NCBI RefSeq assembly: GCF_021729015.1
Contig: NZ_JAJQQZ010000002.1
Location: forward strand, 124,001 to 188,000
Length of the DNA stretch: 64,000 bases
Origin: Halobacterium rubrum
Lineage (GTDB): Archaea; Halobacteriota; Halobacteria; Halobacteriales; Halobacteriaceae
Direction of reading: 5' to 3'
The notes below the pieces were generated by a model, which searched no databases, was not told the DNA's origin, and saw only the letters and a list, made by a program, of their open reading frames with translations. The position numbers and the translations under genes were made by a program. Shown here one piece after another: positions 7,379-53,263 of this stretch. Within the stretch, counting starts at the first letter, position 1, and every line of letters begins with the position of its first letter.

Positions 7379-8173
7379 TCACTTCAGGTCGTCGGCGTGC
7401 TGGTCGGCGAGCCGCGTGGGCGCGGGGAGCTTGTAGCCGGTGCAGGTGGCTTCGACGAGGTCGGCGGCCGCCTCGGCGCTCACGCGGTGGCCGGGGCTGA
7501 CGTAGAGAGGGTTGACGTGGCGCGTCTCGGGGTTCGGGTACTGGCGGGACTGGAGAGCGTACCCGACGACGGTGCCGTCGGGGGCGTCCATCGAGTCGTC
7601 GGCCTCGATGGCGACCCGGGCGCCCTCGGGCAGCGGGTCGGCGAGCGATTCCGCTGGGGTGCCACAGAGGAGGTTCTTCGCGACGCCGACCGCCGGCGCG
7701 TCGAAGAGCACGCCGACGTGCGCCGCGAGGCCGGCCTGCCGGAAGTGGATGCGGCCGCTGCCGTCCAGCACGAGCAGGTCCGGGTCGACGGTCAGCGACT
7801 CGAGGGCGTCGACGATGGCGCCGCCCTCGCGAAACGCGAGCAGCCCCGGCACGTAGGGGATGTCCAGTGGCGCGCGGCCGGCCGCGCGCTCGACGACGGC
7901 GCCGTCTCGAATCGCGACGGCGGCGCTCACGGATTCCTCGTCGCCACGGAACGCCTGGTCGACGCCAACGACCACCGGGGCGTCCCCGTCGCTGGCGGTG
8001 GACTCGCCGAGGGTCGTCTGCTCGCTCGGCGTCTCCTCGAGCGCGACGCTCGCGGGCGTCAGGCCGTGGTCGTCGGAGAAGTCGGCCGCAGCCGCGATGT
8101 CGCGCTGGAGGGACTCCATGTCGCCGGTGTCCAGCGAGGGGTCCGGGAGGAACTCGGGGCGGACGACGTCCAT
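7379..8173 (-). CDS. nfi: Endonuclease V
   Basis: DNA repair nuclease that cuts next to deoxyinosine (deaminated adenine). The 264-residue protein has the metal-binding acidic residues in their usual contexts: Asp72 in VGVDQAF, Glu116 in PGLLAFRE and Asp137 in LVLDGSG. The strand-separating wedge PYVP is at 106-109. The common HPR motif reads HFR at 143-145, a small deviation. GVAKNLLCG follows as expected. The N-terminal ~65 residues are a haloarchaeal extension. ATG 8173 lies 4 bp past the rhomboid gene's stop, so the two form an operon. Confidence 0.92.
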   Translation of the reverse strand: MDVVRPEFLPDPSLDTGDMESLQRDIAAAADFSDDHGLTPASVALEETPSEQTTLGESTASDGDAPVVVGVDQAFRGDEESVSAAVAIRDGAVVERAAGRAPLDIPYVPGLLAFREGGAIVDALESLTVDPDLLVLDGSGRIHFRQAGLAAHVGVLFDAPAVGVAKNLLCGTPAESLADPLPEGARVAIEADDSMDAPDGTVVGYALQSRQYPNPETRHVNPLYVSPGHRVSAEAAADLVEATCTGYKLPAPTRLADQHADDLK

Positions 8174-21013: not shown

Positions 21014-21499
21014 TCACTCCACCCGGTAGAACATCCCCTTCGAGGCGGGCCGGGTCTCCTCGAACCCCCACTGCCGTCAGAACGCGCGTTCTGACGTTCT
21101 CGAAAATCGCGAGGCGATTTTCGAATGTTCGTAGAAGCCGTCGACGTCCACCGTGAGGTTCACGTACGCGTTCGGCGGCGCGTGCTCGTCGAGGTACGCC
21201 ATCACGGCGTCCATCAGTTGCGTGCCGAGCCCCTGGAGCTGGTGGTCGGGGTGGACGACCATGTCACAGACGTGGTAGACCGAGCCGCCGTCCCCGACGA
21301 TTCTGGCCATACCAACCGTGTCGGACCCCTCCTCGACGACGGTGACGCCGTAGACGGAGTTCGGGAGGCCGCGTTCGACGCCCTCCCGCGAGCGCGCAGA
21401 CATCCCGGCTGCGGCCCGCAGTTCCTGGAAGCGCTCGACCGTCGGGAGCGCCTCGCGGAGTTCGTAGCTCTTACCCTGGCGTGGCTGGACTCGGCGCAA
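21014..21499 (-). pseudogene. GNAT-family N-acetyltransferase interrupted by a palindromic insertion
   Basis: The GNAT fold is intact up to the last strand: VYGVTVVEEGSDTVGMARIVGDG, then VCDMVVHPDHQLQGLGTQLMDA (the acetyl-CoA-binding loop reads QLQGLG), then VDGFYE. Here about 54 bp of palindromic sequence is inserted and brings in a TGA stop. Beyond it, in the same frame, the normal family ending can still be read at 21014-21071 (WGFEETRPASKGMFYRVE, stop). The start is also poor: the expected MSYELREAL reads KSYELREAL, so the ATG may have become AAG; TTG 21499 is the nearest alternative. It lies just downstream of gatB on the same strand. Probably a recently inactivated acetyltransferase of unknown substrate. 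Confidence 0.8.
21072..21125. mobile_element. ~54-bp two-hairpin palindromic element inside the GNAT gene
   Basis: Two hairpins lie side by side: GTCAGAACGC / GCGTTCTGAC (21076-21095, perfect, no loop) and CGAAAATCGC / GCGATTTTCG (21101-21110 and 21114-21123, 3-nt loop). Reading frame on both sides belongs to one acetyltransferase, so the block is an insertion. A second element of the same length, layout and first hairpin lies in the gene at 52706-53263. No transposase is encoded; this is a miniature, non-autonomous element or repetitive palindrome. Exact borders are uncertain by a few bases. Confidence 0.75.
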
Positions 21500-21579
21500 A
21501 GTCGTGTCGGTTCGGCCCACCGGGCCAGACGAGTGCCGGCGTTCAGCGGCGCGAATCCGAGACAAGTAGACGGGCTCGC

Positions 21580-49347: not shown

Positions 49348-49953
49348 ATGGGCATCGACGAGGACAAGCGCGCGACCCTCCGCCGGTTCGCCGCGGTGGG
49401 CGCAGCCAGTCCGCTGACGCGGCTGGCGGGCGAGGACGGCGTCGAGGGGAGCAGCGACGTCCGGGACGCCATCACCGGCTACCTGGCGACGACGCCGGGC
49501 GCGCACTTCTCGAAGCTCCGCGACGACCTCCAGCTGGGGACGGGCGAGACCCAGCACCACCTGCAGCGGTTGCTGGACGACGGCGCCGTCGAGAGCGTGC
49601 GCGACGGCGACTACAAGCGCTTCTATCCGGCCGGCCAGTTCTCGACGTTCGAGCAGCGCGCGCTCGGCTACCTCCGTCGGGAGACCCCGCGGGGGATGGT
49701 GGTCGAACTGCTCCGGGACCCGGACGCGACCGGCGGCGACCTCGCGGCCGCGCTGGACGTGTCGCCCGCGACAGTGAGCAAGTACGCTGCCGAACTGGAG
49801 GACGCCGGGATGCTGTCGCGCGTGGACGGGTACGCCGTCCAGCAGCCCGAGACCCTCGTCACGCTGCTCGTACGGTACGCCGACTCCTTCGACGCCAACG
49901 CCGTCGACTTCGCCGGCGAGGCGGCCGACCTCCTCTCCTACGACCCGTCGTAG
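49348..49953 (+). CDS. Two-winged-helix transcriptional regulator
   Basis: A 201-residue DNA-binding protein with two consecutive winged helices: ITGYLATTPGAHFSKLRDDLQLGTGETQHHLQRLLDDGAVES (about 42-85) and LLRDPDATGGDLAAALDVSPATVSKYAAELEDAGMLSR (about 125-165). The first half resembles haloarchaeal MarR/IclR-like regulators that take part in membrane or stress control. ATG 49348 is chosen for the TATA-like GTTTTT centred about 30 bp upstream. The frame remains open after the TAG stop through the entire 36-bp repeat array. Confidence 0.82.
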   Translation: MGIDEDKRATLRRFAAVGAASPLTRLAGEDGVEGSSDVRDAITGYLATTPGAHFSKLRDDLQLGTGETQHHLQRLLDDGAVESVRDGDYKRFYPAGQFSTFEQRALGYLRRETPRGMVVELLRDPDATGGDLAAALDVSPATVSKYAAELEDAGMLSRVDGYAVQQPETLVTLLVRYADSFDANAVDFAGEAADLLSYDPS

Positions 49954-50341
49954 CTGTCGCTGACGGTCTGGAGCACGCAGCCCGGGTTGGCTGCGAAGAC
50001 AGATACTGACAGTGGTAGCGGTGTCGCCGTCGACGGTCGGCGACTGACCGGGTGGGGTGTCGCCGTCGACGGTCGGCGACTGACCGGGTGGGGTGTCGCC
50101 GTCGACGGTCGGCGACTGACCGGGTGGGGTGTCGCCGTCGACGGTCGGCGACTGACCGGGTGGGGTGTCGCCGTCGACGGTCGGCGACTGACCGGGTGGG
50201 GTGTCGCCGTCGACGGTCGGCGACTGACCGGGTGGGGTGTCGCCGTCGACGGTCGGCGACTGACCGAAAACGCAGGTGGATGACAGCGAGACCGGCGAGT
50301 GGACGACAGCGGTGTCGCGGCGGGAGCGTGTCGCTCGCCGG
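49954..50341. other. 388-bp gap holding a minisatellite between convergent genes
   Basis: The gap lies between the stop of the winged-helix gene and the stop of the convergent DUF7123-type gene. Its central 246 bp are the 36-bp tandem array. Nothing gene-like is visible in the rest; open frames through the array exist on both strands only because the unit length is a multiple of three. Confidence 0.7.
50020..50265. repeat. 36-bp tandem repeat array, six full and one partial copy, all identical
   Basis: The unit begins GGTGTCGCCGTCGACGGTCG and ends GACCGGGTGG. Six perfect copies (50020-50235) are followed by the first 30 bp of a seventh (50236-50265). Each unit contains GTCGCCG and CGGCGAC as an inverted repeat that could fold into a 7-bp hairpin, plus a GTCGAC (SalI-type) palindrome. 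Copies abut without spacers, so it is a minisatellite, not a CRISPR. Absence of any base differences points to recent expansion or active homogenisation. Confidence 0.97.
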
Positions 50342-50584
50342 TCAGGCGACGACTTTCCAGGTGGTCGACGACGAGTAGCCCCAGCGTTCGACCTCCAGGT
50401 CGTGGTCGTCGGCGTCCTCGATGGCGGGCATGTTGGCGCCGACCTCCTTCGCGGAGAGCTCGAGTTCGTCGCCGATGAGCCGCGATTTGAAGTACGTGCG
50501 GTCGTCGGCGTGGTCGCGGAGGTACTCGAGAATCCGGTGCTGTTTCGGGGTGAGTGACTGGCTCGTCGCGGCGGTCGCGCTCAT
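50342..50584 (-). CDS. Small haloarchaeal winged-helix-like protein (DUF7123 type)
   Basis: An 80-residue protein: LTPKQHRILEYLRDHADDRTYFKSRLIGDELELSAKEVGANMPAIED reads as three helices with a turn typical of a small winged helix, and the ending EVERWGYSSSTTWKVVA as two strands of the wing. It is probably DNA-binding; the target is unknown. ATG 50584 is chosen over an upstream alternative because MSATAATSQSLTPKQ matches the family beginning. Its 3' end lies 77 bp from the tandem array. Confidence 0.78.
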   Translation of the reverse strand: MSATAATSQSLTPKQHRILEYLRDHADDRTYFKSRLIGDELELSAKEVGANMPAIEDADDHDLEVERWGYSSSTTWKVVA

Positions 50585-50632
50585 GTCTGTATGGAGGGCG
50601 TACCAGCCCAAGAGGGATTTGGTACGGCCAGT

Positions 50633-50659
50633 AAAAATCCGCGCCTTCTTGCGGTTTTT
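50633..50659. other. A/T-flanked hairpin between divergent genes
   Basis: AAAAA-T-CCGC and GCGG-TTTTT form a near-perfect hairpin with an 8-nt loop. The oligo-T on either strand resembles a two-way intrinsic terminator, or an operator. It lies 49 bp upstream of the DUF7123-type gene and 194 bp upstream of the glycosyltransferase gene. Confidence 0.45.
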
Positions 50660-50852
50660 CGGCTGTCGGGCGGTCCCGCGGGGCCGGTACGGCCCCCGCC
50701 TGGTAGGACTGGTTAACTGGAGGAATCCCCGCGAGACGAGCGTGCCGAGCGGTGGGGCGGACGCCAGCAGCAGTGTCCGTCAGTCGAGCGGGCCCGCCGC
50801 CCGCGTGCGGAGTCAGAAGGTACTTACTGCGAGCTAGACGACTGTGCAGCCA

Positions 50853-52694
50853 ATGAGCGACTCGGCCGTCGAGGTGAGTGTCGTCCTCCCGGCGTACAAC
50901 GAGGCCGACACCATCGAGGCGACGGTTCGGACCACGCTGGAGACCCTCGACGGCTTCCTGCCGGCGGGCAGCTTCGAGGTCGTCGTGGCCGAAGACGGCT
51001 GCGAGGACGAGACGCCCGAGATTGCGGCCCGGCTGGCGGCCGACGACGACCGCGTCCGGCACTTCCACAGCGACGAGCGGCTGGGCCGCGGCGGCGCGCT
51101 GAACGCCGCGTTCCGGGACGCACTGGGTGACACGCTCGTCTACTTCGACACGGATCTGGCGACGGACATGCGCCACCTCGAGGAGCTCGTGGAGAGCGTC
51201 CGCAGCGAGGGCTACGACCTCGCGACGGGCTCGCGGTGGATGCCGGGCGAGGCGGCCGACCGGCCGGCGAAGCGCGGCGTCCCCTCGAAGGGGTTCAACG
51301 TCGCCGTGCAGGCGCTGCTCGGGTCGGAGCTCCGGGACCACCAGTGTGGGTTCAAGGCGTTCAGCCGGAACGCCTTCGAGACGCTGGTCGACGACGTGGC
51401 AGACGAGCACTGGTTCTGGGACACCGAGATGCTCGTCCGGGCGCAGCGACAGGGCCTCGACGTCAAGGAGTTCGCCGTCGAGTGGACGTCGAAAGGCGAC
51501 TCGAAAGTCGACCTCGTGCGGGACGTCTTCGGGATGGGCAGCCAGATTCTCCGGTGTTTCTGGGAGTTCTCCGTGAGCCCGTACGCGAACCGCCGCACGG
51601 GGATGGTGGTCGGCAGCCTGCTGTCGGTGGCGGCGTTCGCGCTGATGTTCGTCTACATCGACGTCGACGCGTTCGTCGACGCCGTCTCGAACGCCGACCC
51701 CGCGCTGGTCGCGGCTGGCGCCGTCGTCTACCTGACGTCGTGGCCGCTGCGCGGCCAGCGCTACCGCGACATCCTCGAGGAACTCGGGTACCGCGAGGAC
51801 GTGTGGTTCCTGACGGGCGCGGTGTTCATCAGCCAGACCGGGAACCTCGTCATCCCCGCGAGGGCGGGTGACGCCATCCGCGCGTACGTCGTCAAGGCGC
51901 GCCGCGGCGTCCCCTACACCACCGGGTTCGCGTCGCTGGCGGTCGAGCGCGTCTTCGACCTCCTGACCATCACCGTGCTCGCCGGCGGCGTGCTCGTGGC
52001 GCTGTCGGCGTTCTCGCCGTCGACGCTCGCGGAGCTGGCGTCGACGGCTGCCGGCGAGGGGCTCAGCGGACAGGAGTCCGCCGCGGTCCAGCAGGCGACG
52101 GTGGTGTCGACGGTCGTCGGCGCGCTCGCCATCACCACCGTCGTCGCTATCGTGTGGTCGGCGCGAACCGACTCGAACTACGTCCGCGGGGTCGTGGAGT
52201 GGGCCAGCGACGACTCCTACGTCGAGTTCGTCGCCGACATCTTCGAGCGGTTCGTCGGCGACGTGCAGAAGGTCGCCGTCGACGGCCGCGCGTTCGCTGG
52301 CATCGGCGCCTCCAGCGTCGTCATCTGGACCATCGACGTGGCGACGGCGCTGCTCGTGTTTCTGGCGTTCGGACTCGAGCTGTCGCCGACGAGCCTGCTC
52401 GCCGTCGGGTTCTTCGCGGTGAGCGTCGGCAACCTCTCGAAGGTCATCCCGGGACCGCCCGGCGGCATCGGCATCTACGAGGCCGCGTTCGCCGCCATCG
52501 TCTCGACGCTGCTCCCGGTGGCGTTCGGCACGGCACTCGGCATCGCCATCGTCGACCACATCGTGAAGAACGTCGTCACCGTCGTCGGCGGCGCCGTCTC
52601 GATGACGACGCTGAACGTCTCGCTGACCGAGGCCGTCGACGGTCGGGAGGCGGACGTGGCGGCCGAGAGTGACGCGGCCCCCGTCGACGAGTAG
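50853..52694 (+). CDS. aglD: AglD-like dolichol-phosphate glycosyltransferase with UPF0104 membrane domain
   Basis: A 613-residue fusion. Residues about 1-240 are a GT-A glycosyltransferase of family GT2: VSVVLPAYNEADTIEATV, AEDGCEDETPEIA, and the DTD metal/nucleotide-sugar motif at 99-101, then HWFWDTEMLVRAQ. The remainder is an 8-helix UPF0104 (lysylphosphatidylglycerol synthase-like) membrane domain. In Haloferax AglD charges dolichol phosphate with mannose for S-layer N-glycosylation; this protein has the same two-domain plan, so a dolichol-phosphate sugar transferase is inferred, with the sugar unknown. No other agl genes are near. ATG 50853 is chosen over GTG 50844. Confidence 0.88.
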   Translation: MSDSAVEVSVVLPAYNEADTIEATVRTTLETLDGFLPAGSFEVVVAEDGCEDETPEIAARLAADDDRVRHFHSDERLGRGGALNAAFRDALGDTLVYFDTDLATDMRHLEELVESVRSEGYDLATGSRWMPGEAADRPAKRGVPSKGFNVAVQALLGSELRDHQCGFKAFSRNAFETLVDDVADEHWFWDTEMLVRAQRQGLDVKEFAVEWTSKGDSKVDLVRDVFGMGSQILRCFWEFSVSPYANRRTGMVVGSLLSVAAFALMFVYIDVDAFVDAVSNADPALVAAGAVVYLTSWPLRGQRYRDILEELGYREDVWFLTGAVFISQTGNLVIPARAGDAIRAYVVKARRGVPYTTGFASLAVERVFDLLTITVLAGGVLVALSAFSPSTLAELASTAAGEGLSGQESAAVQQATVVSTVVGALAITTVVAIVWSARTDSNYVRGVVEWASDDSYVEFVADIFERFVGDVQKVAVDGRAFAGIGASSVVIWTIDVATALLVFLAFGLELSPTSLLAVGFFAVSVGNLSKVIPGPPGGIGIYEAAFAAIVSTLLPVAFGTALGIAIVDHIVKNVVTVVGGAVSMTTLNVSLTEAVDGREADVAAESDAAPVDE

Positions 52695-52705
52695 GCGGCC
52701 CGCAG

Positions 52706-53263
52706 TCAGTAGTGCTCGGTGACGAACGGGCCGACTGCGCCGGCGACTGCCGTCCGGAGCGCCTCCGTTCGGTCGGTCATCCCGGCGGTCAGCACGCCCG
52801 CAGCGCCCTGATTCTCGGCGACGCCGGAGGTGTCCAGCAGGTCGTCCATCACCGGTCCGAGTTCCGCGCCGTCGTGGAGACGGTCGGCCACATCGTCGGG
52901 CAGGCGGAGGCGCGGTCCCGCCCCGATTTCGATGCGGTCGCCGTCGGTGGCGGCGGCCCACATTATCAGGTAGAGGTCGCCGGCCCGCTCGGCGACGCCA
53001 CCCTCCAGACCGACGCCGAGGTCGTGGTCGTCATCCTCAGAACGCGAAGCGTTCTGACGGGCTGCGGAAGACGACGTCGTCGTCTTCCGAACGTCGAGCG
53101 CGCGCTGGGCGCGGTTGCGGGCGCCTGCAACGGTCTCGTCGTCGCCCCACGGCTGTTCGCTGACGCCGCTCTCGACGGCGACGCGCTCCACTGTCGCGTC
53201 CGGGAGCGCGCGCCGGACGGCGTCGCGCTTCACGGGATTCCCAGAGCCGACTGCTACGTGCAC
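52706..53263 (-). CDS. Inosine/xanthosine triphosphatase with an 18-residue palindrome-encoded insert
   Basis: YjjX/NTPase-family house-cleaning enzyme that hydrolyses non-canonical ITP and XTP. VGSGNPVKRDAVRRAL at 5-20 and DLGVGLEGGV at 81-90 are its key motifs. Between QRALDV and DDDHDLGVG, residues about 59-76 (RKTTTSSSAARQNASRSE) are encoded by a 54-bp double-palindrome insertion that stays in frame. Without it the protein would be 167 residues, close to the usual ~170. The insert lies in a solvent-exposed loop before the catalytic strand, so activity may survive. GTG start at 53263. Convergent with the glycosyltransferase gene. Confidence 0.85.
   Translation of the reverse strand: MHVAVGSGNPVKRDAVRRALPDATVERVAVESGVSEQPWGDDETVAGARNRAQRALDVRKTTTSSSAARQNASRSEDDDHDLGVGLEGGVAERAGDLYLIMWAAATDGDRIEIGAGPRLRLPDDVADRLHDGAELGPVMDDLLDTSGVAENQGAAGVLTAGMTDRTEALRTAVAGAVGPFVTEHY
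53036..53089. mobile_element. 54-bp two-hairpin palindromic element inside the NTPase gene
   Basis: TCAGAACGC / GCGTTCTGA with a GAA loop (53038-53058) and CGGAAGACGACG / CGTCGTCTTCCG (53065-53089, near-perfect). Length, hairpin order and the AGAACGC/GCGTTCT first hairpin match the element at 21072-21125; the second hairpin differs. It is oriented the same way. Read in this frame it has no stop codon. Confidence 0.75.

Follow-up and report, generated by a model that had tools for sequence, protein, structure and literature searches.

What interrupts a GNAT acetyltransferase gene of Halobacterium rubrum, so that its reading frame ends inside a block of palindromes and its C-terminus resumes behind it? 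The gene lies on the minus strand of the 64,000 bp stretch of DNA analysed here (the window) and is represented by a truncated frame of 162 aa (21077..21565) with matches to Pfam Acetyltransf_10, Acetyltransf_7 and Acetyltransf_1 (E-values of 4e-11 to 2e-10), and by an orphaned segment, QWGFEETRPASKGMFYRVE plus stop codon (21014..21073, minus strand), in which the family C-terminus continues in unchanged frame. An earlier, sequence-only reading had attributed this arrangement to an element of approximately 54 bp at 21072-21125 made of two palindromes, and we found two hairpins with perfect stems at this position: hairpin 1 (21077..21094, plus strand; inverted-repeat arms 21075-21085 and 21086-21096), in which TCAGAACGC directly abuts GCGTTCTGA without a loop, and hairpin 2, TCGAAAATCGC-gag-GCGATTTTCGA (21100..21124, plus strand). 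The palindrome AGAACGC...GCGTTCT occurs twice in the window and not once in 100 shuffles. The GNAT frame is closed, as that reading had stated, within the block, by a minus-strand TGA at 21077-21079 inside hairpin 1, and this in-frame stop removes the last 19 native residues from the protein.

Alignment of GNAT orthologues revealed an empty site in nine genomes, of which six belong to Halobacterium and three to two further genera of the Halobacteriaceae. All nine orthologous proteins read ...FYE(Q/R)WGFE... without the block, and in their DNA the codons GGC TTC TAC GA(A/G) are immediately followed by CAG, CGG or CGC and then TGG. Compared with these sequences the extra DNA amounts to exactly 54 bases and is present only in the Halobacterium rubrum genome. 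The interruption would have been refuted had all orthologues carried the block, or had the codons behind it belonged to another gene; the orthologues identify those codons as GNAT's own C-terminus, and the proposed movement or copying of a miniature element into coding DNA is borne out as a clean insertion. TG (CA on the coding strand) flanks the insert on both sides, which leaves a 2-base ambiguity in its placement (21072-21125, 21073-21126 or 21074-21127), with the first of these (21072..21125), in which the plus strand of the element is the plus strand of the window, used here as one valid choice. By comparison with the empty sites, the TG at the left junction (21072..21073, plus strand), which recurs at 21126-21127, is a possible 2-base target duplication. 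That the block is instead ancestral and was lost from all other species, or is a sequencing artefact, has practically no credibility: we found no supporting evidence, the nine empty orthologues span three genera, and homologous elements occupy many unrelated sites.

One such homologue lies in the window itself. The sequence-only reading had noted a second copy of the same size and plan at 53036-53089, which proved to be a true relative with a 60-base insert (53034..53093, plus strand) of the form TCC-hp1-CGGGCTG-hp2-AACG and 3-base loops in both hairpin 1 (53037..53057, plus strand) and hairpin 2 (53065..53089, plus strand). What had been missed is that this copy lies inside a protein-coding gene without interrupting its frame. 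It reads in frame as DVRKTTTSSSAARQNASRSED within a minus-strand DUF84/NTPase_I-T (YjjX-type) gene (52706..53263), identified by Pfam PF01931, orthologues and a YjjX structure-sequence alignment; the Pfam match covers residues 6-180, across the insert, with an E-value of 6.5e-45, and DUF84 orthologues lack the insert. An AlphaFold model computed from the single protein sequence was of low quality (mean pLDDT 44.9) and no inference was taken from it. We also noted a mechanically called minus-strand ORF at 49938-52961 that contains approximately seven tandem copies of PVSRRPSTATPH and corresponds to a DNA tandem array.

We built a covariance model from 16 copies, excluding that in GNAT. The second window copy, whose sequence was in the training set, scored 86.4 bits, and the excluded GNAT copy, in which the 3-base loop of hairpin 1 is gone and the tag and linker have diverged, was nevertheless detected with 47.9 bits (21071-21133, E 8.6e-13). 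A genome-wide search with this model identified four clear copies in the Halobacterium rubrum genome, in the GNAT and DUF84 genes, in a PAS-type sensor gene (L100) and near a tRNA-Ser gene. The last of these (L260, G000:C2:263133-263198) sits about 90 bases from the tRNA-Ser(CGA) gene, between sequences that resemble tRNA 3′ ends. Matches were found in 258 of 293 Halobacteriales genomes, where at most 17 candidates were scored per genome and copy numbers are consequently lower bounds. In a phylum-wide draw of 197 genomes, the 30 with matches were all Halobacteriales, and no sampled genome from outside the order matched. Among the 80 matches listed in a pattern scan covering 84,980 species, 79 have haloarchaeal titles. 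Viral contigs gave no match to the element core. Within the family Halobacteriaceae the exact stem pattern was present in 13 of 26 genomes, with a loop of nearly always 3 bases and variable sequence.

The family consensus can be written as CG/TCC-(TCAGAA nnn - loop - nnn TTCTGA)-YGGGCTG-(hairpin 2)-AACG, with a size of about 54-60 bases. Of 142 copies, 136 have CG directly before the element and 135 continue with TCC; TGGGCTG follows hairpin 1 in 101 of 112. Stems are mostly 9-10 bp long, their first pair being mostly T-A and their second C-G in all 112, and both hairpins of most copies carry 3-base loops, of which 26-29 different sequences were seen. Conservation is seen in the linker and in the outer pairs of hairpin 1; its inner pairs and hairpin 2 show compensatory changes, with 474 double-changed cells counted against a shuffle mean of 134 and maximum of 182 (300 shuffles). 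Since pairing had been a criterion in choosing these copies, we repeated the test on a set of 111 defined by hairpin-1 ends and linker only, in which hairpin 2 was well paired in 102 copies (0.2% when shuffled) and directly followed by AACG in 101. A four-hairpin form of 120 bases also exists. Only copies that scored best or fitted the exact pattern were sampled, and not all are independent, as some occupy one site through common descent (TnpB, DUF2797-like).

Several other repeats were observed around or beside these copies. Intergenic copies are often enclosed, in several genomes, by a larger repeat, ...GGTGCTTRCGT(element)...CCCCTTTSAGTCCC..., with further hairpins around it (L285-L295, L025, L028-L030 and L032), and high-copy genomes could not be taken as cases of recent amplification because their intergenic copies sit within a larger shared repeat and are not independent insertions. 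A related yet different two-hairpin repeat, CA-hairpin-TTGGCAG-hairpin-GACG, is found in other haloarchaea (L158 at 5859; L162, minus strand, at 7545; L193, minus strand, at 2787). In another hairpin repeat, from a sister genus (L011, L012 and L024), the TCAGAACGC hairpin recurs together with a GTAGGAAGC..GCTTCCTAC hairpin.

The DUF84 copy is not exceptional in being readable. To recognise coding flanks, we trained a codon-usage model on haloarchaeal genes (of its 229 confident test calls, 221 were correct) and applied it to 180 bases on either side of each copy. In 20 short copies the two flanks were both confidently coding, on one strand, and 16 of these are in frame, free of stops and read on the minus strand of the element. 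The 20-residue inserts that they specify are variants of (D/G)VRKTTxSSSAAHQNAxRSED. With TnpB contexts excluded, insert length was divisible by three in 14 of 16 coding copies as opposed to 10 of 35 clearly noncoding ones (p = 1.6e-4). Host proteins recognised by Pfam include, besides DUF84, a MinD/ParA-type ATPase, NAD kinase, TrpB, lipoate ligase, acyl-CoA dehydrogenase and a DUF255 protein; a second MinD-like protein, PAS kinases and TnpB were named from sequence. The TrpB host shows an exact 19-residue gap between conserved segments when compared with the sequence of the solved structure 5ey5, and its genome also encodes a second TrpB that is 53% identical. At a recurrent TnpB site, inspection showed copies of 60 or 57 bases, in which a 23- or 20-base hairpin 1 is combined with a 23-base hairpin 2 and the frame stays open, whereas 56-base copies at other TnpB sites shift it. 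The 120-base form encodes a 40-residue version of the peptide with unchanged ends; one example (L018) is in frame between two coding flanks, and in another (L035), which has one confidently coding flank, the frame stays open through the element. One Halobacterium protein (L101, about 1501-1569 and 1690-1758) contains two in-frame copies 63 residues apart. Translation of genic copies is inferred from this conservation of frame, expression not having been shown, and selection on the residue encoded by the hairpin-1 loop is only suggestive (0/19 versus 7/43, p = 0.09).

The single orientation of the in-frame copies requires a filter, since coding DNA offers target phases for the opposite orientation just as often (0.354 versus 0.344). 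Orientation is presumably filtered through the encoded peptide; in its commonest phase the opposite orientation is predicted to give a basic, hydrophobic one. The constraint on coding copies also bears on whether the block could be a structured RNA or intron-like element that is excised from the mRNA and leaves GNAT intact. Strong covariation and a fixed loop length would suit such an element, but removal at the RNA level would make the constraint on frame and stops superfluous, and we reject it on that ground as very improbable; many copies are, moreover, intergenic, and Rfam contained no match to the element, the sole hit being a sub-threshold one to sRNA P10 elsewhere in L004.

If most genic copies are read through, why is the GNAT frame broken? 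The element enters after CG, and in GNAT after TG. When the consensus was translated in all six placements, a minus-strand placement at codon positions 1-2 gave a peptide ending in ...SEREAF and a stop, and the GNAT protein ends in ...SERAF and a stop. This agreement between predicted and observed termini identifies the GNAT copy as the element of the in-frame copies, landed in the wrong phase. Codon phase would then be decisive, in that landing at NNC-GNN on the coding strand should yield an open peptide frame and an entry at codon positions 1-2 (codon CAG in GNAT) should place TGA in frame. Several genomes of the genus have no close GNAT orthologue at all, and no second copy of the gene was found in the Halobacterium rubrum genome; the gene thus appears dispensable in the genus, which may be why the wrong-phase copy was tolerated.

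Taken together, we consider it highly likely that the block represents a mobile palindromic element of haloarchaea, a two-hairpin repeat that is short and non-autonomous and inserts at CG^YC-like sites, and that in the GNAT case it landed in the wrong phase of a gene that appears dispensable. That the element is mobile we infer from its lineage-specific presence and its occurrence at many unrelated sites, no movement having been observed. The target looks like CG^YC, and with CG almost always on both sides of the element a duplicated CG cannot be distinguished from one that the element carries. We propose that the element moves as DNA with its hairpins as recognition structures, that a transposase, none having been identified, is provided in trans, and that selection after insertion would purge most genic copies except stop-free inserts of a multiple of three bases that encode the hydrophilic peptide (D/G)VRKTTxSSSAAHQNAxRSED; each of these steps is an inference.

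A resident Y1 transposase was considered as the mover and is not supported. None is present in the Halobacterium rubrum genome, despite its four copies, or in other copy-bearing genomes (e.g. G009, G016 and G019), so that a resident enzyme is unnecessary for copy presence, and across the Halobacteriaceae Y1 transposases do not track the presence of copies. Elsewhere, a chain of several hairpins with 3-base loops was seen upstream of an IS200-type tnpA gene (L010; Y1_Tnp match G002:C1:943070). PATEs and IS200/IS605 ends share with the element near-terminal palindromes and insertion beside a fixed short target (PMC3119063). They differ in that the 3′ flanks of the five TnpB genes of Halobacterium rubrum, tried as a source of the hairpins, have no match to them, and in that the genome has no Y1 transposase; having no such ends in common with a resident IS200/IS605 element, the element does not qualify as a MITE or PATE derived from one.

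Many copies are nonetheless close to TnpB genes: 47 of 145 sampled copies are inside one or within 300 bases, which looks like targeting, and two (L095 and L099) are inserted into a CCCAC...GTGGG palindrome that has TnpB about 100 bases away. These observations would fit a short relative of the short mobile repeats of Haloquadratum (SMR-A; HqIRS42, HqIRS43 and HqIRS55), which preferentially target IS605-type elements and PATEs. By their description (PMC3119063), SMR-A are likewise haloarchaeal, short and hairpin-forming, with unknown mobilisation, frequent location in IS605-type elements and no obvious long target duplication, and their length of about 110 bases is close to that of the 120-base form. 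In our element no long target duplication is obvious either, the 2-base CG (TG in GNAT) on its two sides being either a duplication or carried by the element. SMR-A have prominent inverted terminal repeats, and coding insertions are not mentioned in the sections consulted, while the element, in its 60- and 120-base forms, has no obvious terminal inverted repeats and ends only in CGTCC and, on the reverse strand, CGTTC. SMR-A target near-terminal palindromes of IS605 elements and PATEs, whereas only part of the TnpB-associated copies lie within palindromes and many other copies are in ordinary genes or intergenic. Without a sequence comparison, the element may be kin to SMR-A, but we regard a short SMR-A relative as possible and somewhat doubtful.

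Protein-coding palindromes are already known from Rickettsia, as Rickettsia palindromic elements (RPE), and from some REP-rich bacteria (PMC10969869, PMC3733652). RPE are likewise short palindromic repeats, placed in frame in many unrelated genes to which they add a conserved peptide, have no known transposase and carry CGTC at one end, as our element does. The element differs in belonging to Halobacteriales and not Rickettsia, in a peptide of its own, and in its approximately 60 (or 120) bases, two (or four) hairpins and 3-base loops. Like RPE, it adds a conserved peptide to genes unrelated to each other, with 16 of 20 copies in frame, and by this analogy, for which no sequences were compared, it appears to work like an RPE.

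CGTC-tagged REPs are defined by a CGTC (TGTC/CCTC) tag, an 8-9 bp stem starting with two A-T pairs, a 4-5 base loop and a tail fitting CCA (PMC3733652). The element could be a dimer of this type, an archaeal branch, by descent or transfer, of the bacterial CGTC-REP/RPE superfamily, for it has a CGTC tag at its left end (CGTT on the reverse strand at its right), 9-10 bp stems in paired hairpins, intragenic coding copies of about 20 residues and no dedicated transposase, as in that survey. The unpaired tag and the absence of its own transposase genes satisfy the definition; the missing A-T start of the stem, the loop of 3 instead of 4-5 bases and the missing CCA tail do not, the CGTC tag is partly target sequence, and the element is confined to Halobacteriales in the genomes searched. 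We therefore find such a dimer unlikely: the element resembles a CGTC REP yet does not meet the definition. The main text of the survey does not mention archaeal genomes. The statement in the sequence-only reading that no named family matches accordingly holds only in part, as none could be shown to match in all defining features, but strongly resembling named kinds exist, namely CGTC REPs and RPE (PMC3733652, PMC10969869) and SMR (PMC3119063).

We found no published description of coding palindromes of this kind in archaea, within open-access text. It is possible, at odds that we put slightly below even, that archaea own a large protein-coding palindromic mobile family whose origin is independent of the Rickettsia and REP families and whose hairpins, in stem length, loops, frame and orientation, are shaped for persistence inside functional proteins. 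Annotators should be aware that 20 extra hydrophilic residues in a haloarchaeal enzyme may stem from a mobile element, and that a truncated gene may contain a wrong-phase copy. A widespread archaeal version of protein-coding palindromes, with many empty and filled sites and good haloarchaeal genetics, would allow tests of how selfish hairpin DNA persists within proteins, of whether the element is a source of protein variation, and of how REP-like repeats move when they lack a transposase.
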